A stretch of DNA of 64,000 nucleotides from Acidobacteriota bacterium (lineage in GTDB: Bacteria; Acidobacteriota; Terriglobia; Bryobacterales; Bryobacteraceae), in the NCBI GenBank assembly GCA_026394075.1, contig JAPKYX010000002.1, positions 1 to 64,000 on the forward strand. Direction: 5' to 3'. The notes beneath the pieces are model-generated. The model was not told the DNA's origin, did not search any database, and worked only from the letters and a program-made list of their open reading frames with translations. The translations under genes were made by a program, and so were the position numbers. This document shows, piece after piece, positions 14,583 through 26,329 of the stretch; position 1 is the first letter of the stretch; each line of letters opens with the position of its first letter.

Positions 14583-16295
14583 CTACTTGATCACGATGCC
14601 GCGCTCCTGCAGCAACGTGCCCGTGCGCTGCAGCAAGTTGAGCAAGTTGCGCCGGTACTGGACGGAGTTGGTGACCAGGTCCGATTGCGCCTGCGTCAAC
14701 TGGCTCTGCTGGTTCAACAGGAAGAACAGGGTGCTGACACCCAGGTCGTACTTCTTCTGCTCCGCTTCCACTGACTTCTGCGCCAGGTCGGCGGCGATCT
14801 TGGCCAGGTCCACCGAGGCGCGCGAGTTCTCTACCTGCGAGATGGCGTTCAGCACTTCCAGGCGGGCGTTCTGTTCAAACTGCCGCACCTGCAGCGCGTC
14901 GATCTTTTTGGTGACCGTCGCATCGGCATAGTCAGCGGCGGCACGGCGATCCTTGATCGGCAGGCGTAGCGTGATGCCCATGCCGTAAACAGGAAACCCA
15001 AAGCCCCACATCTGGGACCAGGCATCGCCAAAACCCCCGGGAATCAAGGTGGTCGAGGTAAGCGGCAGACCATCGGGGCCCACCACCCGGGTGGTCCGGA
15101 CCTGGTTGCCGCCGCGGCCTTGCGAGGTGTAGATGCCGTTCAGGGTCAAATCGGGCTTCAGATTGTTGGCGGCTGCCTTCAGCGCGTAGTCGTCCACCAC
15201 CAGATCCTGCCGTTGGGTCTTGATGTCCGGGCGATTGCGCAGCGCACCGGCCACCAGTGCTTCGCGGTCAAACGGCTTGTTGTCGCTCGGCGGCAGCACG
15301 GATTCAGAGAGCACGATGGCCAGCTTGCGAACCTCGGGGTCGAGATCAATACCGGCCTGGCGGCGCAACGCGTCTTCCGTTTGCTGGAGGCGGTACCGGG
15401 CTTGGGTGACCACCACTTCCGCGCGGGCATACTGTGCCTGCGGCTGATAGATTTCAAGCGACGAGATCGCGCCTAGCTCCAACTCGCGCTGAGCGCGCTT
15501 CAGGCTGGCGTCGGCCAAAGCCAGCGCTTGTTCCTGAACGCGCAGATTCTCGCGAGCACCAATCACATCCCAATAAGCATTCTCAGCCAGCGCCAACAAG
15601 CGCTGTACTTGATCTTCCAGCGACAATTCGCCGACAGTGAGGCGCGAACGGGCAAGCAGGATGGGCAGCTTGTTCACATAGGTGCCCCGGTTGCGCAGCA
15701 AAGGCTGCGTGAAACGCAGGTCGAGGTTGGAGTTCAGCGCGGGGTTGAAGTTCTGGAACGAGTTGTTGTTCGACAACTTGTTGAACCGGTATCCAAAATT
15801 CAACTGCGTACCGCTGGCCAGAGTCTGCTGGTAAGTCAGATTGGCCGGTTGCGTTAACTGGCTCAAGGTCGCCGCGCCGGCCAGGGCATCCGTGGTGGGC
15901 GTGATCTGGCGCTGCGGCGAAACGTTCGCGGTCACGGTGGGATCAAAGACGCCGAAGGCACGCGTGATGGCGTTGCGCTGGGGTTCGATCAAAGCCTTTT
16001 GAATCTGGATATCCGTACTGTTGGCCATCACCAGTTCCAGATAGGAACGGAGCGACAGTTCCAGCTTGTCACCGACGACAAAGTCAGCCAACTTGGTAGG
16101 CCCGGCCAGTTCCACGTTGGGCATCTTCGGATTGAAGACGTAGTTGAAGTACTGTTTCGTCCCAAAGCGGGGGTACTGTGGCCCCATCTTTTCAGCGGCC
16201 ACAGCCGCCGGCATGGGCTGATTAATCTGGGGCCCGTTGTCGGCCGCAAAGAGAGTGAGGCCGAAGGCCCAGGATACGATTGCTAAAAGTCTCAT
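14583..16295 (-). CDS. TolC-family outer membrane efflux protein
   Basis: 570 residues with a signal peptide (MRLLAIVSWAFGLTLFA). Two outer-membrane-efflux-protein repeats: the first includes LELSLRSYLELVMANSTDIQ and a coiled-coil hairpin (LALADASLKRAQRELELGAISSLEIYQPQAQYARAE in pieces), the second has RPDIKTQRQDL and the final coil (VDLAKIAADLAQKSVEAEQKK, LTQAQSDLV). It is predicted to form the trimeric outer membrane duct for the adjacent inner membrane parts. The stop of the upstream permease gene lies only 2 bp before its start. Confidence 0.92.
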   Translation of the reverse strand: MRLLAIVSWAFGLTLFAADNGPQINQPMPAAVAAEKMGPQYPRFGTKQYFNYVFNPKMPNVELAGPTKLADFVVGDKLELSLRSYLELVMANSTDIQIQKALIEPQRNAITRAFGVFDPTVTANVSPQRQITPTTDALAGAATLSQLTQPANLTYQQTLASGTQLNFGYRFNKLSNNNSFQNFNPALNSNLDLRFTQPLLRNRGTYVNKLPILLARSRLTVGELSLEDQVQRLLALAENAYWDVIGARENLRVQEQALALADASLKRAQRELELGAISSLEIYQPQAQYARAEVVVTQARYRLQQTEDALRRQAGIDLDPEVRKLAIVLSESVLPPSDNKPFDREALVAGALRNRPDIKTQRQDLVVDDYALKAAANNLKPDLTLNGIYTSQGRGGNQVRTTRVVGPDGLPLTSTTLIPGGFGDAWSQMWGFGFPVYGMGITLRLPIKDRRAAADYADATVTKKIDALQVRQFEQNARLEVLNAISQVENSRASVDLAKIAADLAQKSVEAEQKKYDLGVSTLFFLLNQQSQLTQAQSDLVTNSVQYRRNLLNLLQRTGTLLQERGIVIK

Positions 16296-16297
16296 TG

Positions 16298-17557
16298 TTA
16301 TTCGTAACGAATTGCCTCGATCGGATCGAGCTTCGCCGCCTGCACGGCCGGATAGATACCAAACACGACGCCAATACCCACCGAGACGCCGAAGGCGACC
16401 ACGATGGAAGATGTGGTGACAACGGTGGACCAGCCCGCCGCCGAAGCAATCAGCTTCGACAGCGAGAATCCAAAGACAATGCCGATGAGGCCGCCCAGGA
16501 TGGAGATCAACACCGCTTCAGTCAGAAACTGCCGGATGATGTCGGCCTGCCGGGCGCCGATGGCGCGGCGGATACCGATCTCTCGGGTGCGTTCCAGCAC
16601 CGTCGCCAGCATGATGTTCATAATGCCGATACCGCCCACCAGCAGCGAGATACCCGCGATACAAAGCATGACGACGTTAAAGATGAACTGCGTGCGCTTC
16701 TTTTGCTCCAGCAGCCCGGCCGGCACGGTGACGTTAAAGTCGCCCGCGTCTTTGTGCGTGGAGGCGAGGATCGCCGTGATGACGGAGGCGGTCTCCACCG
16801 AATCTGCGCCCGGCTTCACCTTCAGATAGATCCCATCGATCTCGTCTTTCAAGAAGCTGTTGTTGTCTTCAAACCGGCGCATCACCGTGTTCAGCGGCGC
16901 GATCACCATGTTGTTGCGGTTGGTGACTTCGACACCTTCGACATCGGCGTCACCGGCGGCCTGTTGTGACAGCACTCCGATCACTTGCAGCCACGTGTCA
17001 TTGATCTTCACGTAGCGGCCCACGGCGCCGCCTTCGTAGCCCAGCAGGTTCACTTTGGCGGATTCACCTAAGACGCAAACGGGCGACGAACTTTGGTTAT
17101 CCTCGTCGTTGAACCAGCGGCCTTCAGTCACCTTCAGGGAGTTGATCTCCAGGTAGTCCGGCTCGACGCCAATCAGCAGTGGAGGCTCAGAGGCAGTCTT
17201 GGGCAGCACCCGCAGCGGCTTAAAACGCTTGCGCGGTGTCGCGGCTTCAATCGCCTGGACGTTTTCGGTGATGGCGCGGTAGTCGCGGAACGTCATGCCG
17301 GGCGAGATTAGCCGCCGGGCTTGCAGTTCGTTGCGGTCCACCGCTTCTTTGGCTTCGATGATAATGTTGTTGACCCCGAGCAGGTCAATGTAACTCATCA
17401 TCTCCTTCTGCGCGCCGGCAGTGATGGACAACATCGCCACCACCGCGCCCACGCCAAAGATCATGCCCAGCATGGTCAGCAAGCTGCGCAGCTTGTGAAC
17501 CAGGAGGCTCGAAAGCCCCATGTATATTTCAGGAAGTAAGCCCGAGAGGTTTGCCAT
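16298..17557 (-). CDS. ABC transporter permease, MacB-like (permease half only)
   Basis: 419 residues. TM1 near 20-45 (LLTMLGMIFGVGAVVAMLSI), MacB_PCD periplasmic domain about 45-285, then three C-terminal TMs of the FtsX domain, including ISLLVGGIGIMNIMLATVLERTREIGIRRAIGA in pieces and PAVQAAKLDPIEAIRYE at the end. True MacB proteins carry an N-terminal ATPase; this one does not, so a separate MacB/LolD-type ATPase is required. None is encoded next to it. It sits inside the run MFP-MFP-MFP-permease-TolC, 15 bp downstream of the nearest membrane fusion protein gene. Confidence 0.92.
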   Translation of the reverse strand: MANLSGLLPEIYMGLSSLLVHKLRSLLTMLGMIFGVGAVVAMLSITAGAQKEMMSYIDLLGVNNIIIEAKEAVDRNELQARRLISPGMTFRDYRAITENVQAIEAATPRKRFKPLRVLPKTASEPPLLIGVEPDYLEINSLKVTEGRWFNDEDNQSSSPVCVLGESAKVNLLGYEGGAVGRYVKINDTWLQVIGVLSQQAAGDADVEGVEVTNRNNMVIAPLNTVMRRFEDNNSFLKDEIDGIYLKVKPGADSVETASVITAILASTHKDAGDFNVTVPAGLLEQKKRTQFIFNVVMLCIAGISLLVGGIGIMNIMLATVLERTREIGIRRAIGARQADIIRQFLTEAVLISILGGLIGIVFGFSLSKLIASAAGWSTVVTTSSIVVAFGVSVGIGVVFGIYPAVQAAKLDPIEAIRYE

Positions 17558-17572
17558 GTCAGTATCGACTAC

Positions 17573-19480
17573 CTATGATTTGGGCATCGGCATGCCCGCC
17601 GCGCCGCCGCCACCGGCGGGCTTCTGCTCCGATTTCTTTTTCTTGTCGCCCGGCTTCTCGTTGGGGTCAGCCAAAGCCACGGTCTCGCCCGGCTTGACGC
17701 CCTCGGCGATCACCATGGTGGATTCACTGCGCTTGGAGGGGCGGATGACGCGTTCGTCAAACTTGTTGCCGTTCTTGACGTAGACCACCTGCTTGCCGTC
17801 CTTCTCAAAGACCGCTTGCATCGGCACGTTGACGGCGTTCTCGATCTTCTCAATGATGATCTCGACGTCGGCCAGCAGCCCGGGCCGCAGCAGCACCTCG
17901 ACCTGAGAGTCTTCCTCCGGCGGGGGCGGCAGCTTGGCCAACTCCATATCCTTCGCGCTGAACGGACCATTGCCGCCCGCAAAAGGCATCATCATGCCAC
18001 CGGGTGCACCGCCAGGGCCGCCGCGGCCGCCACCGGCTCCACCGCCGCGTTGCGGCAGCGTAATGCCCAGTTTGGCCACTTCTTCGCGGACCTTGGCCAT
18101 GATGCCCGTGCGTTCCTCGGGCGTCAACTCCTGCATGCTCTTGCCATTCAGCGCCTTCTGCGTTGCGGCCCGGACCTTCTGTTGCTGTTCCGGCGTCAGG
18201 TTGGCACCGCCAAACATACCGCCGCCGCCGCGCTGAGCGCCACCTTCGGCACCACCCGGCGCACCCATCGTCTGGCCACCGCCCGGCATTCCGCCACCGC
18301 TCATGCCACCAGGCATCCCACCGCCCTGCATGCCACCCATGCCGCCAGGCATTCCGCCGCCCGCCATCATGGCGGCCATCATGCCGCCACCCGAGGAGGC
18401 CGTCGGAGGCTTCTTGCGATTCGCTTCCGCCGTCGCCAGCACCTTGGCGATCTGGTCCGGACGCGCCCCCAGGGCCGACAGCAACTGCTTCATGTCGACC
18501 GAAAAGATCACGTCAAACTTCTTCTGCACGTCGCCCGAGAACATGTTGGAGCTGGCCGTGCCGCTCATCGACTTGATGGTGCCGGTGAACTGCTTCTCGG
18601 CAATCGCATCCAGCTTGATGGTCACTTGCTGGCCCTCACGAAGATTGGCGCGATCCAGTTCGCCCACCTTGGCCAACACTTCCATCTCCGACAGATCCAG
18701 CACGTCCGCCACCGGCGTGCCGGGCTGCACCTGGTCGCCTTCGCGAATATCCGGCAACTGCATGCCGAACATCATCACCGACGACCGGTTCTGCTTGATC
18801 GCCACCAGTCCGGAGATCGGAGATAGCAGTTTCACCTGCGACAGGCGGGACCGTTCGCGCGCCATTTCCAGCGTCGCCTTGTTCTTCTTCTCGCGCAGCA
18901 CGGCCAGTTCGGCCTGGGACTGCTCGCGGCGGCTCTTGATGTCGCTTTCCAGTTGCGACAACCGGCGCTTTGATTCATCGAGCGTCAACTGGTTCTTCTT
19001 GGCGTCAATGGCCGAGATCAGCTCGTTCTTCTTGACTTCCAGTTCCGCGCGACGCACCGCGTAGCGGGCCCGGAGCAGTTCCACTTGATCCTGATTGTCG
19101 CGGATAGCCAAGTCAGCTTGCGCCTTCTTGATCTGCTCGTCAATCTGGTCCAGCTCCAGCTGCTTTTCTTCCAGGCGCGATTGCACCTCGGCGTCGTCAA
19201 ATTCGACCACCAGATCCTTCTCGCGGGCAAAGGCACCCAGGGCCGCCAGCTTCGTGACCTGCACGGTACCGAACAGATTGGGGGCCGTCAGCGTCACCGA
19301 ACGGACCGCCCGCAATTCACCGCGCGTAAAGCTGCGGACAATGACATCGCCCTGACGCACCTTGGCCGTAGCAATAGACAACTGGCGCTGGGCCGTCATG
19401 GCTTGCAGTGCCGTATAGCCGGCGTAGCCCGCGGCCGTCAGGGCCCCCAGCAATACGATGCGTATGATCCACTTTTTCAT
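17573..19480 (-). CDS. efflux membrane fusion protein with Gly/Met-rich insert
   Basis: 635 residues against about 380-420 for typical MacA/HlyD-type adaptors. An N-terminal TM anchor (6-26) is followed by beta-barrel/lipoyl segments, a coiled-coil hairpin (about 100-215, rich in K/E/Q/R) and the return lipoyl strand LLSPISGLVAIKQ. At about 357-505 there is a large low-complexity insert of GGGM/MPGG repeats around a short helical block (LTPEQQQKVRAATQKAL, LTPEERTGIMAKVREEV). The C-terminal barrel follows (VLLRPGLLADVEIII, VNVPMQAVFEKDGKQVVYV) with a Lys/Gly tail. The Met-rich insert could bind soft metals or simply be flexible. Links the permease to the TolC-type duct. Confidence 0.88.
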   Translation of the reverse strand: MKKWIIRIVLLGALTAAGYAGYTALQAMTAQRQLSIATAKVRQGDVIVRSFTRGELRAVRSVTLTAPNLFGTVQVTKLAALGAFAREKDLVVEFDDAEVQSRLEEKQLELDQIDEQIKKAQADLAIRDNQDQVELLRARYAVRRAELEVKKNELISAIDAKKNQLTLDESKRRLSQLESDIKSRREQSQAELAVLREKKNKATLEMARERSRLSQVKLLSPISGLVAIKQNRSSVMMFGMQLPDIREGDQVQPGTPVADVLDLSEMEVLAKVGELDRANLREGQQVTIKLDAIAEKQFTGTIKSMSGTASSNMFSGDVQKKFDVIFSVDMKQLLSALGARPDQIAKVLATAEANRKKPPTASSGGGMMAAMMAGGGMPGGMGGMQGGGMPGGMSGGGMPGGGQTMGAPGGAEGGAQRGGGGMFGGANLTPEQQQKVRAATQKALNGKSMQELTPEERTGIMAKVREEVAKLGITLPQRGGGAGGGRGGPGGAPGGMMMPFAGGNGPFSAKDMELAKLPPPPEEDSQVEVLLRPGLLADVEIIIEKIENAVNVPMQAVFEKDGKQVVYVKNGNKFDERVIRPSKRSESTMVIAEGVKPGETVALADPNEKPGDKKKKSEQKPAGGGGAAGMPMPKS

Positions 19481-19531
19481 GGGTTCGGTAGTTGAAACGC
19501 TTTCCTCAAAATGGAGCTGCCGAGGCTCCCC

Positions 19532-20842
19532 CTAGATCTTCTTGGCCCGCTTCAGGGCTTCGGCCGGGTTCTCGAGGGCGATGATCTCGCCTTCCTTCAA
19601 CCCACCGGTGACCACAATGTCGATGTCGTTCCGCTTGCCGACTTCAATCGGCCGGATGATGAACTCTGAGCCGCGCTGCACCCACACCGAGGGCTTGCCC
19701 TTGTTCATGAAGCTGGCCCGCGCTGGGATCAGCAGCGTATTGGCCTGGCTTTCCAGCAGAATCTCGCCGGTGGCGCTCATACCGGGGCGCAGGCGCGGAT
19801 CCACTTTGGCCAGCGTCGCCCGGGCCGGGAAGGTCTTCTCCGTCATGCCCATCCCACGGAAGACGACCGAAGCAATGGGGCTGATCCAATCAAGCTTGGC
19901 CTCAAACTCCTGGTCCGGAATGGCATCCACGCGGATGCGCAACGGGAAGCCCAACTGCAGCTTGCCGCGCTCCACTTCTTCCAGCTTCAGATCAATGCGC
20001 ATCTCGCGCAAATCGGGAATTTCGGCAATGGCCGCGCCCGTCCAGGCCCGGTCACCTTCCTTGAACGGCGGCGGGGACTGGCCCCAGCTGCCCTGCGTCC
20101 GGAAGTTCGGCAACACGTTCACGATGCCGTCATTGGGGGCCCGCAGCACCATCTTCGACAGATAGCCCTTGGAGCGCTCCATGTCGCGGACCACTTTGTC
20201 TTTCTGCTGCTCCAGTCGCTCCACGTCGGCTTCCTGAGAAGTCTTGTGCGAGGTGATGGTGGTCTTTACCTGACCCAGTTCACCTTCGCTGATGCCGACA
20301 TCGATGCGGCTTTTGGCACCTTCAATTTCGCTCACCACTTCGGCTTTGGACGCTTCCAGCTTGGACCGTTCCAGATTGAACTGGGCGGTCATCAGATTCA
20401 TGCCGTCCATCTCGTTGGTGATGCGATGGCTGGCCTTCGTCTGCACAATCTGGCTGTCGGCCGTGCGAACGCTGGTGTTCTTTTCGAGGTACGTCTGCTC
20501 CTGCTGAGCGGCGTCGAACTCGACAATAATCTGTCCAGCCTTTACCGGCTTGCCGGACTCAACCAGCATGGTGATGCGTGGGTCAGGCACTTGCGGCGCG
20601 GTAATGATCTGCGAATGAGTGGAGCGGATCTCGCCCCGGGTCCGGACCGCGATCACAAAATCGCCCCGGCGCACCTTGGCCACGGGAACTTCCACCGGGG
20701 TATCCACCAGGTACTTGGTATAGGCGGCATAACCGCCACCAGCGCCGGCCAACAGGATGACCGTCCAGACAATCGCGCGCTTCCGGCGGGAAGCCGCCGT
20801 CTGCCCTAATCTCTGCTTCGGCTTGATGTCTTTGGAGGACAT
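19532..20842 (-). CDS. HlyD-family membrane fusion protein
   Basis: 436 residues. Cytoplasmic N-terminus, one TM (about 23-43, AIVWTVILLAGAGGGYAAYTKYL), lipoyl half (VRRGDFVIAVRTRGEIRS, SGKPVKAGQIIVEFD), coiled coil (about 115-225), second lipoyl half (LRAPNDGIVNVLPNFR), beta-barrel (RIDLKLEEVERGKLQLG, LRPGMSATGEILLES) and membrane-proximal domain (VWVQRGSEFIIRPIEVGKRN). It lacks the low-complexity inserts of its two neighbours. It is the second of three consecutive adaptor genes, with gaps of 51 and 40 bp, all leftward. Confidence 0.9.
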   Translation of the reverse strand: MSSKDIKPKQRLGQTAASRRKRAIVWTVILLAGAGGGYAAYTKYLVDTPVEVPVAKVRRGDFVIAVRTRGEIRSTHSQIITAPQVPDPRITMLVESGKPVKAGQIIVEFDAAQQEQTYLEKNTSVRTADSQIVQTKASHRITNEMDGMNLMTAQFNLERSKLEASKAEVVSEIEGAKSRIDVGISEGELGQVKTTITSHKTSQEADVERLEQQKDKVVRDMERSKGYLSKMVLRAPNDGIVNVLPNFRTQGSWGQSPPPFKEGDRAWTGAAIAEIPDLREMRIDLKLEEVERGKLQLGFPLRIRVDAIPDQEFEAKLDWISPIASVVFRGMGMTEKTFPARATLAKVDPRLRPGMSATGEILLESQANTLLIPARASFMNKGKPSVWVQRGSEFIIRPIEVGKRNDIDIVVTGGLKEGEIIALENPAEALKRAKKI

Positions 20843-20882
20843 AGTTCTAATCGATCCTTATTCCCTGGCCCTGATTCCTGCC

Positions 20883-22703
20883 CTAACTCTTCGCCGGAGG
20901 CGCCGCCGGCCGCTCCAGCGCCACCACTTCGCCCGCCTTCAAACCAGAGCGTACCGCCGCGGTGATGTAGCTAGCCAACCCCAACTCCACTTCACGGCGC
21001 CGCCAGACCGGCTGCTCCGCCGTGCCTTCGCGGACAAAGACGAAAGGCTTGCTGTTGTCGCCTTCGTGGAAGACCGCCCCGGACGGCACGTTGACCGCTG
21101 CCGCCTCGGACTGCAGGACCACATCCGCGCTCACCGAAAGGTCGGGGATCACGCGCGGGTCGATCTGATCCAGCTTCAGCCGCACCGGAATTTCCTTGAC
21201 GTAGCTGGCGCGGAAGCCGCCCGTGCGGGTGACAGCCGCGATGGCCACCACATGGGCGGGCAATTCCAGGCCCGGGTAAGCATCAAAGCGGACCATCGCC
21301 TTGGCTCCCACGCGGAGCCGTTCGGCGTCCACCTGATTGAGGGAGGCGTTGATGATCATCGAACTGGTGTCCACAACCTGCATGAAGAACTGCCCGGGGT
21401 AGAGCTGATCGCCCGCCTGGATCTGGGCAAACTCGGAGCCACGGAAGACATTCTGCATCACGGTCAGGCCATCAATAGCGGACTTGGCCAGCATGCGGTC
21501 GGCATTTTGCTCGGCCCGCTTCAGCTCCAGTTCGGAGGCCTTCAGGTCCAGCTCCTGATTGCGGATCTGGGCCTTTTCTGAGATGTCGACAAACTTCACT
21601 TCGCTCAACAACTGCTTATACTGCGCTTCCGCTTCGTCCAGCGCCAACTTCAGCCGTTCGGCGTCGATGGTGCCGCGTACGGGCGTGGTCTTGATGTCGA
21701 GCTTGGCCTTTTCAAGCGACGCTTTGGCCGTCGCAATGGTCTGCCGGTGTGCTTCGCGGTAGACATCAAGGTCGGCCCGGAGTTTCTTGACGTTGGACTG
21801 CTGCTGCGCGACGGACGACTTGTAGTCTTCCAGCCGCTGCAACATGAACTGGCGATCAAATTCCGCCACCACCTCACCCTTCTTGACGCGCGAACCGGGC
21901 TTCACCAGATCCTGAAGCACCATCATGAATTCGCTGGATCCCCCGCCAGGGTTTCCGCCACCACCACCGCCACCACCACCCTGCAGCTGCGAACTGGTGG
22001 AACCCAGGCCGTCAGAACCGGAGGCCGAAGAACCGGACCCACTCGAACGGGCAGAACTGGAAGAAGACGCGCTGGAGGCCGGGGCCTTGGTGCTAATGCG
22101 CGAAGTGGCCGAACGCAGGGCCGAACTTGCACTGGGCGCGCTGAATCCGCCACCCGACGACGCACTGGCGCCACCACCGGCGCCACCTGCACCACCACCC
22201 GAGGCCGCGCCGCCGGAGGATGCCACAGTAGCAGCTGAACCGCCCGACGAGGAGCCCGCATCACTGCCGCCTCCGCCGCCACCACCACGGGCAGCACCAC
22301 CACCGCCGCCACCGCGAGCACCACCGCCACCCGTTCCGCCAGCCATCGACGCCTGAGCCGGACCGCCCGCATCGCGCCCGCGTCCACCGCGGTTGGCGCG
22401 CAATTGCGGGGTGACCAGAGAGACAAACTTCTCCGCGGCCGTGACACCGGTCAACCGGATCGTCTGCTCGACTCCGCCGGTCGACACCGTGGCCGTTCGC
22501 AGGGCAACCTGGGCAGGTGCGGGTGCATCAGCGCTGCGGCTGAGCATGTACCAGGCACCAACCGCCGCCACCGCCACCAGCACCGTCCCCAGGATCGCCC
22601 AGGGGAAGGGCTTTTTCGGCAGTTCTGGCGCCGGCGCCAAGACGGGCCGGGGAGACGGCCCGGGGGCCGATGGGGCCGGTAAACCGGTAGTAGGAGAGTT
22701 CAT
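20883..22703 (-). CDS. efflux membrane fusion protein with Gly/Ser-rich insert
   Basis: 606 residues. Proline-rich cytoplasmic N-terminus, TM about 34-55 (FPWAILGTVLVAVAAVGAWYML), then a barrel/lipoyl half ending at LTGVTAAEKFVSLVTPQLRA. Residues about 104-258 are a Gly/Ser/Ala-rich low-complexity insert placed inside the lipoyl domain; the lipoyl fold resumes at LVKPGSRVKKGEVVAEFD. A coiled coil follows (about 285-410), then barrel and membrane-proximal domains (VIPDLSVSADVVLQSE, VNVPSGAVFHEGDNSKPFVFV). It is the first of three adaptor genes of the efflux block and begins 82 bp after the NikQ-like gene. Confidence 0.87.
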   Translation of the reverse strand: MNSPTTGLPAPSAPGPSPRPVLAPAPELPKKPFPWAILGTVLVAVAAVGAWYMLSRSADAPAPAQVALRTATVSTGGVEQTIRLTGVTAAEKFVSLVTPQLRANRGGRGRDAGGPAQASMAGGTGGGGARGGGGGGAARGGGGGGGSDAGSSSGGSAATVASSGGAASGGGAGGAGGGASASSGGGFSAPSASSALRSATSRISTKAPASSASSSSSARSSGSGSSASGSDGLGSTSSQLQGGGGGGGGGNPGGGSSEFMMVLQDLVKPGSRVKKGEVVAEFDRQFMLQRLEDYKSSVAQQQSNVKKLRADLDVYREAHRQTIATAKASLEKAKLDIKTTPVRGTIDAERLKLALDEAEAQYKQLLSEVKFVDISEKAQIRNQELDLKASELELKRAEQNADRMLAKSAIDGLTVMQNVFRGSEFAQIQAGDQLYPGQFFMQVVDTSSMIINASLNQVDAERLRVGAKAMVRFDAYPGLELPAHVVAIAAVTRTGGFRASYVKEIPVRLKLDQIDPRVIPDLSVSADVVLQSEAAAVNVPSGAVFHEGDNSKPFVFVREGTAEQPVWRRREVELGLASYITAAVRSGLKAGEVVALERPAAPPAKS

Positions 22704-22785: not shown

Positions 22786-23469
22786 TTAGCGCTTCGTGCG
22801 ATCAACCGTTTGCCCGGGGGGTAGCGATCCGGTGAACCCGCGCGACACCATGGCGGCGTGAACGCGCTCCGCTCGCTCCCAGCTCTTGATAAACAAAAGC
22901 CCTATCTCACTGGCCAACATAGGGATACGGGCGATGCTCAAGGGCCCTGAGCACCGGCTGGAGCGCGCCCGCACCAAGTTGCCGTACTCATCGAGCAGCA
23001 GGTCGAAGTACCGGAACATCAGGTTGGCCGTCATCACCAGCACTTGCGGCGCATGGAGCTTTTCCAAAGCCCACAGAATCTGCGGGATGCCGGAGGTCAC
23101 CACCAGGACGCCCAACAGCAGAATCGCCGTATACCCTTTGAGAACCAACGCGATGGCGGCCCGCACGGCAGCGGGCTGAACGGCAAGCCCTGAGACTGTT
23201 TCCTCCACTCCGGTCAGCAGGCGCAACGCGGCCATCAATAGGATGAATGGGCTGACGGCACTTGTTCGCGCCAGAAAGCTGGCGGCGGGAGCGTCACTCA
23301 GCCGCGCCAGCACCAGAGCACACGCCAATGCACCGGCCAGCAGCCAAGGTTCCGCCGGAGCCGCACCCAGCGCCAAGGTGGCGGCGAAGGTAAACAGCAG
23401 GCGAGCGCGCGGGTCCAGTCGGTGCAGAACCGTGTCGGCCGGGTAGTAGGAATCCAGGCGGAGGCTCAT
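22786..23469 (-). CDS. nikQ: ECF transporter T component, NikQ/CbiQ-like
   Basis: 227 residues from the ATG at 23469, whose ATGA overlaps the stop of the upstream gene; the frame is open to 23559 but the overlap and the N-terminus MSLRLDSYYPADTVLHRLDPRARL fit the CbiQ family. Four to five TMs lie in about 25-150, and the coupling motif ARSSRCSGPLSIARIPMLAS, with the second helix LLFIKSWERAERVHAAMVSRG, matches the Ala-Arg-Gly-type helices that contact the ATPase. It transmits ATP hydrolysis to the NikM subunit. No ATPase (NikO/CbiO) gene follows: the next gene is a membrane fusion protein. Confidence 0.88.
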   Translation of the reverse strand: MSLRLDSYYPADTVLHRLDPRARLLFTFAATLALGAAPAEPWLLAGALACALVLARLSDAPAASFLARTSAVSPFILLMAALRLLTGVEETVSGLAVQPAAVRAAIALVLKGYTAILLLGVLVVTSGIPQILWALEKLHAPQVLVMTANLMFRYFDLLLDEYGNLVRARSSRCSGPLSIARIPMLASEIGLLFIKSWERAERVHAAMVSRGFTGSLPPGQTVDRTKR

Positions 23470-23897
23470 CGGGGTTCGGGCTTCGGCCGCCGCTTCCAGC
23501 CGTACCAACCGCCGGTGAGCCCCAGAATCAAGGCCGCCCCGGTGAGCGCTTTCTGCCACACCGGCTGCGCCCCACCCAGCGGCAGGTTGGCACCTTCAGT
23601 CACCGGAACCTGGATTTCAACCCGATGGCCCAGTTCGTCATCCACCACCACGCGCCACGTCCCGGGCTGGTCCGGCAGAAAGGCAAACCGGCCAGTGCGA
23701 TCGGTCCGGCCATTTTGATGCTCGGTCTTGGGCCCGGCCGGCGAGAAAACCTCTGTGGGGGCGAACGGACACGGTTCAGTCCCGGCGTAGGCGGCGCGAA
23801 TGACGACCGCCGCTCCGGTGCGTTCCGCGGTCAGCACCAGGTCATGCGCTGAGGCCGTCAGCGCGACCGCAGCCAAAATCGTCAGCCGGAGCCTCAT
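23466..23897 (-). CDS. nikL: NikL-like accessory subunit (signal peptide, periplasmic domain, C-terminal TM)
   Basis: 143 residues: signal peptide (1-17, ending ASA, with the mature end starting HDLVLTAERTG), one carboxypeptidase-regulatory-like beta domain (TDRTGRFAFLPDQPGTWRVV) and a C-terminal TM (ALTGAALILGLTGGWYGW) with an RRPKP basic tail. Nickel ECF systems may carry NikL, topologically similar to NikN, in place of NikN. The position between NikM and NikQ, with 4-bp ATGA overlaps on both sides, fits that role. The new N-terminal His after cleavage might coordinate Ni2+ (inference). The symbol is assigned by context. Confidence 0.7.
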   Translation of the reverse strand: MRLRLTILAAVALTASAHDLVLTAERTGAAVVIRAAYAGTEPCPFAPTEVFSPAGPKTEHQNGRTDRTGRFAFLPDQPGTWRVVVDDELGHRVEIQVPVTEGANLPLGGAQPVWQKALTGAALILGLTGGWYGWKRRPKPEPR

Positions 23898-24475
23898 GCC
23901 GCGCTCAGCACGGCCGGTTTCACCCGGCGGACGTACGTGACAATGGCCGCCGTCAGCAACCCTTCTAGCACCGCCACCCCCGCGTAGAGGGTGGCAATAA
24001 AGTAGAAGCCGCGCCCATACCCGGCCCCCGAGAACTCCGCCGCCATCGCCAGGGCCGGAACGAAGGTCCCGGCAAAGCCCGCCAGGAATCCGCGCGCAGT
24101 CTCCGGAATCACCCGCAGTTGCCAGATGCCCGCCGCCAGCAACGCGCCGCCGCCCATGTTGATGGCATTCAGGCCCAGCGCCAACAAGCCTCCGTGTTGA
24201 AACAAAAGGGCTTGAAACAGCAGCATGGTGTAAACCACGGGAAATGCTCGCGTGCCTAGCAGTACCCCCGCCAGGCCAAACAGGCCCAGATGAACAGAAG
24301 TTCCGCCCAATGGGAAATGAATCAGCGACACCACAAATGACGTGGCCGCCAGGAGTCCCATCCGGACCACTTCTTCTGGCTCAACCCGCCGCCCCAGCAG
24401 CGCCGTCGTACCCAGGGCAACGGCGTGTCCAGCCGCGCACCAGACTACGGGAACGATTCCATCGGCAATATGCAT
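23894..24475 (-). CDS. nikM: ECF transporter S component NikM/CbiM-like (Ni2+ or Co2+ binding)
   Basis: 193 residues with about six TMs. It begins MHIADG, where the conserved N-terminal Met-His is part of the metal site in CbiM/NikM; the further conserved stretch HFPLGGTSVHLGLFGLAGVLLG is present at about 72-93. The next part is also typical (FQALLFQHGGLLALGLNAINMG). Nickel rather than cobalt is favoured by the NikK/NikL-like partners and the NikR-type operator upstream, and by the absence of a CbiN gene and of any recognisable cobalamin riboswitch. Overlaps the NikL-like gene by 4 bp. Confidence 0.9.
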   Translation of the reverse strand: MHIADGIVPVVWCAAGHAVALGTTALLGRRVEPEEVVRMGLLAATSFVVSLIHFPLGGTSVHLGLFGLAGVLLGTRAFPVVYTMLLFQALLFQHGGLLALGLNAINMGGGALLAAGIWQLRVIPETARGFLAGFAGTFVPALAMAAEFSGAGYGRGFYFIATLYAGVAVLEGLLTAAIVTYVRRVKPAVLSAA

Positions 24476-24487
24476 CGCAGCAGACCC

Positions 24488-25228
24488 CTACCAGTACAGC
24501 GCCACGGCGGAGGCGTAGGTGTGGACGTCAAACTTGGCCCCCGCCGCCGCCTTCACCTTGGTCTCAGCCACGAACAGCGCCGGACTCTTGGCACCGGCCG
24601 TGAACTTATAGGAGAACTTGCCGTCGGCCCCGGTCTTGCCCAGGTCCACTTCATCCTTCAGCGGCCAAGCCAGGCTGATGTCCACTCCGGCCAGCGGCTT
24701 ACCGCCAGCAAAGACGGTCAAGATGACGCCATCGGCCGTCTTCTCCGGCACCGCCTCAAACTCCAGGCCCACCGGCTTCTCCTTGCCCCAAACCTTGCCC
24801 GGCGTCCCCACATAAGCGATGCCGCTGCGAAACAGCTTGAACGCCTCGGTCGCGTCCGGATGCTGGTCCCGCCCGCCGGCCTTCACGCCTTTGGGCGTGC
24901 GCGACATCACGCCACGATCCTGCGTGAACACCACGCGATAGACGCCTTCGGACTTCACCGGGAAGCTGCCCTTCAGATACTTGTCGGCAACGGAAACCGC
25001 CACCGGTTGGGAGGCTCCCGCAGGGGTGACCGCCCAAACCTTCAGCCCATCCTGCGCCGCCGGCGATTCGCTCCCCAGGAAAGCATGCCCGTTACCCACC
25101 ACAATGGCCGCATCCTGGCCCACCTTCAGCGGTCCTGCCATGGGGCCCACCCAAACAAAGTGGCCGACAAGGGCGGCGGCACCGCCGAGAAACAGGGCCA
25201 GACCAGTGGCGCGGGAGAGGAAAGTCAT
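24488..25228 (-). CDS. nikK: NikK-like periplasmic DUF4198 protein
   Basis: 246 residues from the ATG at 25228, preceded by AAGGAGC at a good distance; the frame upstream to 25288 would read through the operator region and is unlikely to be coding. A short N-terminal hydrophobic segment (LSRATGLALFLGGAAALVG) is followed by HFVWVGP, the usual start of mature DUF4198 proteins, then beta-sandwich repeats (SVADKYLKGSFPVKSEGVYRVVF; GKPLAGVDISLAWPLKD; GADGKFSYKFTA) and a hydrophobic C-terminal end. NikK-type DUF4198 proteins accompany NikM(L/N)QO and are thought to bind or deliver nickel in the periplasm. First gene of the four-gene cluster. Confidence 0.8.
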   Translation of the reverse strand: MTFLSRATGLALFLGGAAALVGHFVWVGPMAGPLKVGQDAAIVVGNGHAFLGSESPAAQDGLKVWAVTPAGASQPVAVSVADKYLKGSFPVKSEGVYRVVFTQDRGVMSRTPKGVKAGGRDQHPDATEAFKLFRSGIAYVGTPGKVWGKEKPVGLEFEAVPEKTADGVILTVFAGGKPLAGVDISLAWPLKDEVDLGKTGADGKFSYKFTAGAKSPALFVAETKVKAAAGAKFDVHTYASAVALYW

Positions 25229-25253
25229 GGTGAAACGGGCTCCTTGGTTTGAG

Positions 25254-25279
25254 TTCGAGAAGGGTCGAACCTTCTTGAA
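25254..25279. other. hairpin in the leader of the nikK-like gene
   Basis: TTCGAGAAGG and CCTTCTTGAA flank a GTCGAA loop: ten-base arms with one mismatch. It sits between the operator candidate and the nikK start codon (25228). It may stabilise the leader or be part of the regulatory site; no T-run follows, so it is not a clear terminator. Confidence 0.4.
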
Positions 25280-25281
25280 CG

Positions 25282-25308
25282 GTATCACGAACTGTCAATC
25301 TGTGATAC
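25282..25308 (-). promoter_or_regulatory. NikR-type operator candidate overlapping a -35 box
   Basis: Perfect inverted repeat GTATCAC-N13-GTGATAC, 54 bp upstream of the nikK-like start. NikR binds inverted repeats of this kind: GTATGA-N16-TCATAC in enterobacteria, and GTGTTAC-N13/14-GTAACAC-like sites reported by comparative genomics in other phyla, so arm length and spacing agree. On the minus strand the spacer contains TTGACA (25298-25293), a consensus -35 box, so a bound repressor would block RNA polymerase. The -10 position (about 25275-25270) is weak. Confidence 0.65.
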
Positions 25309-25703: not shown

Positions 25704-26081
25704 TTACCAGGTAAGCCGCCGGACTCCGCCCACGAAGTCGAAATGCGTATCGCGGCTCATCACAGGAATCGCATGCTGCCGGGCGAGGGCGGCGATCCAC
25801 AAGTCATTGGCCGGAATTGGCTTGCCTGCGCTCTTCAGTTCCAGCCGGATAGCTGCATAGTGCCGGGCGGTTTCAATTCCGACATCGAGAACTGCACATC
25901 GGTCGAGCATGCGTTCGAGCGACCTTTCGTACACCTCGCGGTGGCGGGACTGTGCGATGCCGAAGACAAACTCCCCGGCGACGATGACGGGGACAGCCAC
26001 TTGGCGGGCCTCCGACACCATGCGAACGGCTTCCGGCATGTTGTCAAGGTAGGCAGAAAGCGCATTCGTGTCGAGAATCAA
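25704..26081 (-). CDS. vapC: PIN-domain toxin VapC
   Basis: 125 residues. All PIN-domain acidic residues are present: D4 (MILDTNALSAYL), E37 (VIVAGEFVFG), D93 (PANDLWIAALA) and D111 (SRDTHFD). Expected activity is Mg2+-dependent endoribonuclease on tRNA or rRNA. Its ATG overlaps the stop of the antitoxin gene (ATGA), the usual vapBC arrangement. The frame stops at TAA and is followed in phase by a mazF remnant. Confidence 0.92.
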   Translation of the reverse strand: MILDTNALSAYLDNMPEAVRMVSEARQVAVPVIVAGEFVFGIAQSRHREVYERSLERMLDRCAVLDVGIETARHYAAIRLELKSAGKPIPANDLWIAALARQHAIPVMSRDTHFDFVGGVRRLTW

Positions 26082-26329
26082 GCCCAGTCCTCCGGCTCAA
26101 TCTGCCCGAACTCCTCGTCGATGATCTGCTGGATACGCGCCGTTTCTTCATGAAGATGGGCCAACTCACCCGCACATTCGAGCCAAGGCTTACCCGCGGA
26201 CCGACGGCCCGCGGCCAGCTTTTCCTCCACCGCTTGCGTCACAAACTCCCGCAACGGAATCCCCAACGCCCCGGCCGTTGCCTTGGCCTGGCGAAAGGTA
26301 GGGTCCGGGATTTCGAGGGTGGTCTTCAT
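26078..26329 (-). CDS. vapB: VapB-type antitoxin (ribbon-helix-helix)
   Basis: 83 residues. The N-terminal MKTTLEIPDPTFRQAKATAG and GIPLREFVTQAVEEKLA form a ribbon-helix-helix DNA-binding domain; the C-terminal part (KPWLECAGELAHLHEETARI, EPEDWA) is the toxin-neutralising tail. It is expected to dimerise, bind VapC and repress its own promoter at the palindrome 26340-26355. Confidence 0.9.
   Translation of the reverse strand: MKTTLEIPDPTFRQAKATAGALGIPLREFVTQAVEEKLAAGRRSAGKPWLECAGELAHLHEETARIQQIIDEEFGQIEPEDWA

Follow-up and report, generated by a model that had tools for sequence, protein, structure and literature searches.

How is a metal importer powered when its gene cluster encodes no ATPase? 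The question is raised by nikK-nikM-nikL-nikQ, an energy-coupling factor (ECF) cluster of nickel type that lies at positions 22786-25308, on the minus strand, of a 64,000-nucleotide stretch of DNA (the window) from a member of the Bryobacteraceae, a family of the Acidobacteriota. Group I ECF transporters are usually encoded by one operon that includes a dedicated ATPase. The original prediction for this locus, made from the letters alone, described a nickel ECF cluster that lacks its ATPase gene, nikO, and offered two explanations: that NikO is encoded elsewhere and shared, or that the system works without a dedicated ATPase. Comparison of genomes across the family points to a hybrid variant of a known transporter class, in which the cluster is very probably a NikR-repressed group I nickel importer driven by an unlinked ATPase retained from an old nikMNQO locus.

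A nickel-type ECF cluster without an ATPase gene

Profile searches identified the four genes of the cluster:

24488..25228, minus strand: nikK-like gene, DUF4198 protein of 246 amino acids (Pfam PF10670, E 4.2e-11, over cut-off)
23894..24475, minus strand: nikM/cbiM, S component of 193 amino acids (Pfam PF01891, E 8.5e-42)
23466..23897, minus strand: nikL-like gene, 143 amino acids (NCBIfam NF058648, the NikL family, E 1.7e-18, 67 bits, under the 100-bit cut-off)
22786..23469 from an ATG, minus strand: nikQ/cbiQ, T component of 227 amino acids (TIGR02454, 122 bits, over cut-off)

The longest open reading frame (ORF) of nikQ begins at a GTG, at 23559. Overlaps of a few bases join the M, L and Q genes, which therefore probably form a single transcript. 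NikM has the N-terminus MHIADG, with Met1, His2 and His62 invariant in all 18 aligned NikM proteins, and it can be aligned to the solved structures 4m5b, 4m58 and 5x3x. Despite its score below the cut-off, the NikL-like gene is kept beside NikK and NikM in relatives, and the same model matched 24 ORFs in the loci searched. NikQ carries the coupling-region motifs RARSSR and AAMVSRGF, and the ratio of nonsynonymous to synonymous substitution rates (dN/dS) is about 0.05-0.17 for nikK, nikM, nikL and nikQ.

Most hallmarks of the group I NikKMLQO transporters are thus present, namely a Met-His NikM/CbiM, a CbiQ/NikQ and the pair NikK and NikL in place of NikN; a NikO in the same operon, and a NikO of the NikKMLQO clade, are not. 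An ECF-ATPase profile run against every ORF of at least 60 amino acids in the window gave no match, and the cluster is as the original prediction had it. An assembly gap is an unlikely reason for the missing gene, since nikKMLQ without a neighbouring ATPase gene recurs in six other genomes, some of them assembled in few contigs. Further nikM-nikL-nikQ loci with no ATPase in the stretch examined occur on named Acidobacteriota contigs (L166, L172, L173, L189, L190 and L223).

A lone NikO-type ATPase and the family's older nickel locus

The genome-wide search for NikO/CbiO and NikR that had been proposed for this locus yielded one gene of each kind, the NikR gene being taken up below. The ATPase is encoded by an intact, lone NikO-type gene outside the window (contig C254, 5808-6530), between acpS and dtd. 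It is the genome's best CbiO match, at 186.5 bits compared to 133.8 for the next among 71 matching stretches, and the genome's sole match at E ≤ 1e-35 to a NikKMLQO-type ATPase. Contamination of its contig is unlikely, because the order pgsA-acpS-nikO-dtd recurs in both same-genus genomes. The window NikQ is the sole CbiQ-family T component found in the genome. NikO is therefore encoded elsewhere and apparently dedicated to this cluster, so that the original prediction was right about its location, and the idea of a shared ATPase is not supported.

The 71 stretches matching the CbiO profile leave room for another ATP-binding cassette (ABC) ATPase to energise NikQ while the lone nikO serves something else, as might the bare nikO of genome G049, where no NikM was detected. 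We consider this highly unlikely. The remaining CbiO matches trail the lone gene by 50 bits or more, and compared with a NikKMLQO-type ATPase they all fall short of E 1e-35. The genome yielded no further T component for the lone nikO to work with, and the retention of this gene tracks the absence of a NikKMLQO-type ATPase, as the following comparison shows.

ATPases of the NikMNQO type (old-type) were present in 101 family genomes, where the gene usually ends a nikMN-nikQ-nikO set and has acpS, nikR and dtd as recurring neighbours (41, 31 and 85 of the 101 stretches, respectively, many of which are short). Adjacent Q and M genes accompany it in 89 genomes, Q only in one, and neither in 11. Three of these 11 lie near a contig edge and one is G049; the others are this genome (G000), its same-genus relatives G070 and G110, and G134, G078, G004 and G026. 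The gene order is pgsA-acpS-nikO-dtd in the first six of these seven and acpS-nikR-nikO-dtd in G026. Only nikO remains there of nikMN-nikQ-nikO, and in all seven the nikKMLQ cluster has no ATPase gene next to it.

Among 24 genomes with a short NikM of the nikKMLQ type, the old-type ATPase occurs in precisely these seven, and the 90 genomes with a NikQ-adjacent old-type ATPase all fall outside the 24 (Fisher p 6e-10 for the association, with the three edge cases left out and kinship ignored). A census of the 24, read by eye, gave 10 genomes with an ATPase on the same contig, 4 in which it was inferred across contig breaks (G016, G125, G079 and G114), 2 with an unlinked NikKMLQO-type ATPase and the 7 with a lone old-type gene; G136 was unassigned. 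Where a short-NikM genome has a NikKMLQO-type ATPase (16 genomes), no old-type ATPase was detected. G069, G132 and G109 provide the mirror image: the gene order at the old place is acpS-nikR-dtd, an ATPase match being absent, and their own ATPase stands beside nikKMLQ.

Several other arrangements were seen in these loci. The two unlinked NikKMLQO-type ATPases are a separate case of the ATPase gene moving away: in G064 (L126, L147) it lies ~65 kb from nikKMLQ, and in G107 (L122, L148) on another contig, in a similar neighbourhood. In genus g5, the old set is complete in G148 (L266) and G113 (L286), where Q and M adjoin the ATPase, and reduced to the lone ATPase in G004, G078 and G134, which also carry nikKMLQ. 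A second, distant ABC ATPase gene stands beside the NikKMLQO-type ATPase in G132, G109 and G069.

In all seven lone ATPases the Walker A, Q-loop, signature, Walker B and H-loop motifs are intact. The H-loop switch histidine, also kept in 27 NikMNQO ATPases, is replaced (SQ for TH/SH) in 14 of 16 NikKMLQO-type ATPases, for example L123:6223-6909 and L139:5951-6640. The dN/dS ratio is 0.04-0.10 for lone nikO, compared to 0.04-0.19 for linked nikO, and by this measure the lone ATPase is under purifying selection.

Two explanations that deny the cluster a working motor can be judged on this evidence. NikKMLQ might act with no ATPase at all, by facilitated or residual transport: no ATPase gene was found in the window, and CbiMN is known to retain some uptake when its Q and O are missing. 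NikQ, whose known role is coupling to an ATPase, is nevertheless kept with intact motifs and low dN/dS, and a conserved NikO-type ATPase is present in all seven such genomes. The idea is very improbable, and the prediction's second option is not supported. Alternatively, the lone nikO might be a decaying remnant and NikKMLQ non-functional, given that gene loss at the old locus is evident and that the lone ATPases of g5 sit on a long branch. The low dN/dS ratios of nikO and of nikK, nikM, nikL and nikQ, the full set of ATPase motifs and the conserved operator make this scarcely credible.

Phylogeny bears on where the lone ATPases came from and how often. The ATPase tree (51 rows; duplicates, loci L050-L055 and two low-score bare ATPases left out) places all seven inside the NikMNQO clade (97/95), in three places, and the NikKMLQO ATPases in a clade of their own (100/99). 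In the NikQ tree, which left out two short rows and three duplicate loci, all 30 NikMNQO-type NikQ proteins form one clade (100/100) and the window NikQ falls outside it. The NikMNQO rows of both trees are mostly best matches to this genome's nikO, and thus a biased sample; a quick tree that took all 101 old-type ATPases kept g1 (the genus of this genome), G026 and g5 apart, the sister of g1 being the linked G021 ATPase (support 0.95). The NikQ of G026 groups among NikQ proteins that have a NikKMLQO-type ATPase (96/86), and therefore such an ATPase was probably once present in G026 and lost. The strongly supported branches of the ATPase tree do not alone require more than one origin. Gene order also differs, with nikL divergent in G026 and nikKMLQ in line in g1 and g5. 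Together, tree positions and gene order suggest at least two hybrid-forming events (G026; the g1 and g5 genera).

The NikR-type operator, the metal and the neighbouring genes

Upstream of nikK lies the element on which regulation of the cluster would depend:

25282..25308, minus strand: NikR-type operator GTATCAC-N13-GTGATAC (27 bp), an exact palindrome

The exact operator occurs once in the 5.77 Mb genome, compared to 0.002 copies expected under a first-order composition model built from sampled loci; the further copies that the original prediction proposed to look for did not appear in the exact search. At up to 3 mismatches the genome gave 84 matches and a reversed-pattern control 45, and therefore only the exact site is informative. 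Two of the four sites with 2 mismatches were inspected and had no recognisable nickel gene; nothing was drawn from them. Across 150 family genomes the exact operator is found once in each of seven, with no reversed-control site among the matches listed, and all seven copies sit at nickel-transport, DUF4198 or TonB-receptor genes. It precedes nikK in this genome and in both same-genus relatives examined, G070 and G110. In G141 the operator has a nikR-NicO pair on one side and a divergent TonB-type receptor gene on the other; in G078 a DUF4198 gene takes the place of the pair (the site in G004 is identical in sequence); and in G044 the copy stands ~10 bases before a TonB-dependent receptor gene. 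A related form, GTRNCAC-N13-GTGNYAC, is present once each in 43 of 83 loci that were picked for holding nikO or nikR (seven being second copies from a genome already counted), and the reversed control was found in none.

The layout agrees with published NikR sites, which are inverted repeats with a spacer of 13 or 14 bases: excerpts of PMC545781 give GTGTTAC-N13/14-GTAACAC for delta-proteobacteria and GTATGAT-N13/14-ATCATAC for enterobacteria. The genome has one NikR gene (C41:1037-1441), whose product has RHH_1 and NikR_C domains, exceeds the cut-off of NF003381 and can be aligned to the solved NikR 2bj1, including the HVH..C stretch. With a NikR gene present, the interpretation of 25282-25308 as a predicted NikR-type operator holds, in keeping with the original prediction. 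This nikR is not at the acpS place, and a Fur-family gene adjoins it on the same strand (C41:1037-1892, L154).

The original prediction also placed a TTGACA box at the operator. The hexamer is indeed there, within the operator (25293-25298, minus strand). A promoter search around it found no promoter-like site and no -10 partner, and in G110 the palindrome is kept and TTGACA lost; the absent -10 and this loss leave a promoter at the box without support, and that reading was rejected. No operator was seen by eye before the lone nikO in three g1 sequences. Predicted NikR sites also stand directly before genes for TonB-dependent/OMP_b-brl_4 receptors in G141 (L318:4768-9803), G078/G004 (L319:5688-9644) and G044 (L317:4070-6061), and these are candidate outer-membrane nickel receptors. 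A literature search on the NikR regulon in Acidobacteriota gave a match on magnesium transport only.

The case for nickel rather than cobalt rests mainly on NikR. The cargo might be cobalt, or cobalt and nickel, which would change the metal only and is compatible with a hybrid transporter: the best models for M carry cobalt names, some NikKML-type systems are predicted for cobalt in the sections of PMC2667541 that treat them, no NiFe hydrogenase was found in the genome, and urease-alpha was matched only weakly and in part, by two open frames (555 and 524 amino acids). The NikR-type operator at the cluster, the same palindrome at the nikR-NicO pair of G141 and the frequent placement of nikR beside family NikMN loci (31 of 101 stretches) speak against cobalt, which we regard as unlikely.

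The efflux adaptor that the original prediction noted as the next gene is there: an HlyD-type adaptor gene (20883-22703) starts ~80 bases beyond nikQ. It belongs to a separate export cluster (14583-22703) of three HlyD-type adaptors, one with a very high glycine and serine content, a MacB-type permease and an outer-membrane efflux protein, for which the ECF-ATPase profile found no ABC ATPase anywhere in the window. The adaptor gene adjoins nikKMLQ in both same-genus genomes and in none of the other nikKMLQ loci examined. Beside the nickel operon, a gene for a VapC-like PIN toxin (25704-26329) and a small gene upstream of it are likely a toxin-antitoxin pair; the PIN gene is kept at this place in G070 and G110.

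A probable hybrid of two nickel importers

The most probable reading, that an unlinked old ATPase drives nikKMLQ, implies the following sequence of events and mode of action. A newer S/T module (K, M, L and Q) would have replaced the old MN and Q proteins, and use by the new T component would have kept selection acting on the old ATPase; lone nikO would then be what is left of an older nikR-nikMN-nikQ-nikO locus of the family. NikK and NikL may help to pass nickel to NikM, NikQ would couple NikM to the NikO encoded on C254, and ATP hydrolysis would drive import. Nickel-loaded NikR, bound at 25282-25308, would repress the S/T module alone. Expression of the motor gene would continue under this control of the membrane module, since no operator was seen ahead of the lone nikO. 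What the comparison shows directly is the gene content, the pattern of loss, the phylogeny, selection and the conservation of the operator; the pairing of this NikQ with this NikO, nickel as the cargo, repression and the roles of NikK and NikL are inferred.

Besides the hydrogenase and urease results, several observations count against this reading. Values of dS are near saturation in the lone-nikO comparisons. The lone ATPases of g5 occupy a long branch of unsupported position, and do not group with the linked g5 ATPases of G113 and G148; their descent from these linked genes within the genus was not confirmed. G049 (L254, an 84% complete draft) has a bare old-type nikO by dtd with no adjacent NikQ or NikM and no NikM match, so that a lone nikO can occur where NikKMLQ is not detected, and G070 and G026 hold a further complete M-Q-O set. 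Lastly, co-adaptation of NikQ to the old ATPase was expected to give a coupling region like that of NikMNQO-type NikQ, and this was not seen: in the seven genomes the region has not shifted and stays NikKMLQ-like.

Known systems share parts of this arrangement. In the ure2 operon of Brucella abortus, as described in excerpts of PMC2868824, nikK, nikM, nikL and nikQ likewise form one operon in the same order, and a nikO mutant has lower urease activity, which nickel raises; here NikO is unlinked and of the other ATPase type. The NikMNQO systems of delta-proteobacteria (PMC545781, in part) also have an inverted-repeat NikR site with an N13/14 spacer before the transporter genes, and the lone ATPase appears to descend from a locus of that type; their half-site is GTGTTAC, however, and this genome has lost the MN and Q that such loci carry. 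In Candidatus Electrothrix gigas, the parts of a nickel ECF system again differ in history and place, but according to the relevant part of PMC11247825 M, Q and O are together and nikKL apart, whereas here O alone is apart.

In group II ECF transporters, a shared EcfAA'T module provides T and A components common to many S components. There, as here, the ATPase gene lies apart from the S component gene; in our case the T gene accompanies the S gene, the A gene alone is separate, and the genome yielded a single T component.

Excerpts of PMC2667541 report no organism with both NikKMLQO and NikMNQO, and state that the phylogeny of Q and O does not match that of M, N, K and L. The open-licence PMC literature yielded no publication describing an ATPase retained after its own system was displaced, or such a hybrid.

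Together, the results indicate that an ECF cluster without an ATPase need not be dead or ATP-independent, and a hybrid would account for an apparent gene loss of the kind that automated annotation labels incomplete. We lean towards the view that ECF ATPases are exchangeable between the two nickel types, and that probably twice or more in this family NikKMLQ took over the ATPase of a displaced NikMNQO system, giving stable hybrids with control placed on the membrane module. The operator sites provide a predicted NikR regulon for Acidobacteriota. Such an apparent natural motor swap between two related importers would be a convenient system for testing where a T component and its ATPase have to fit each other.

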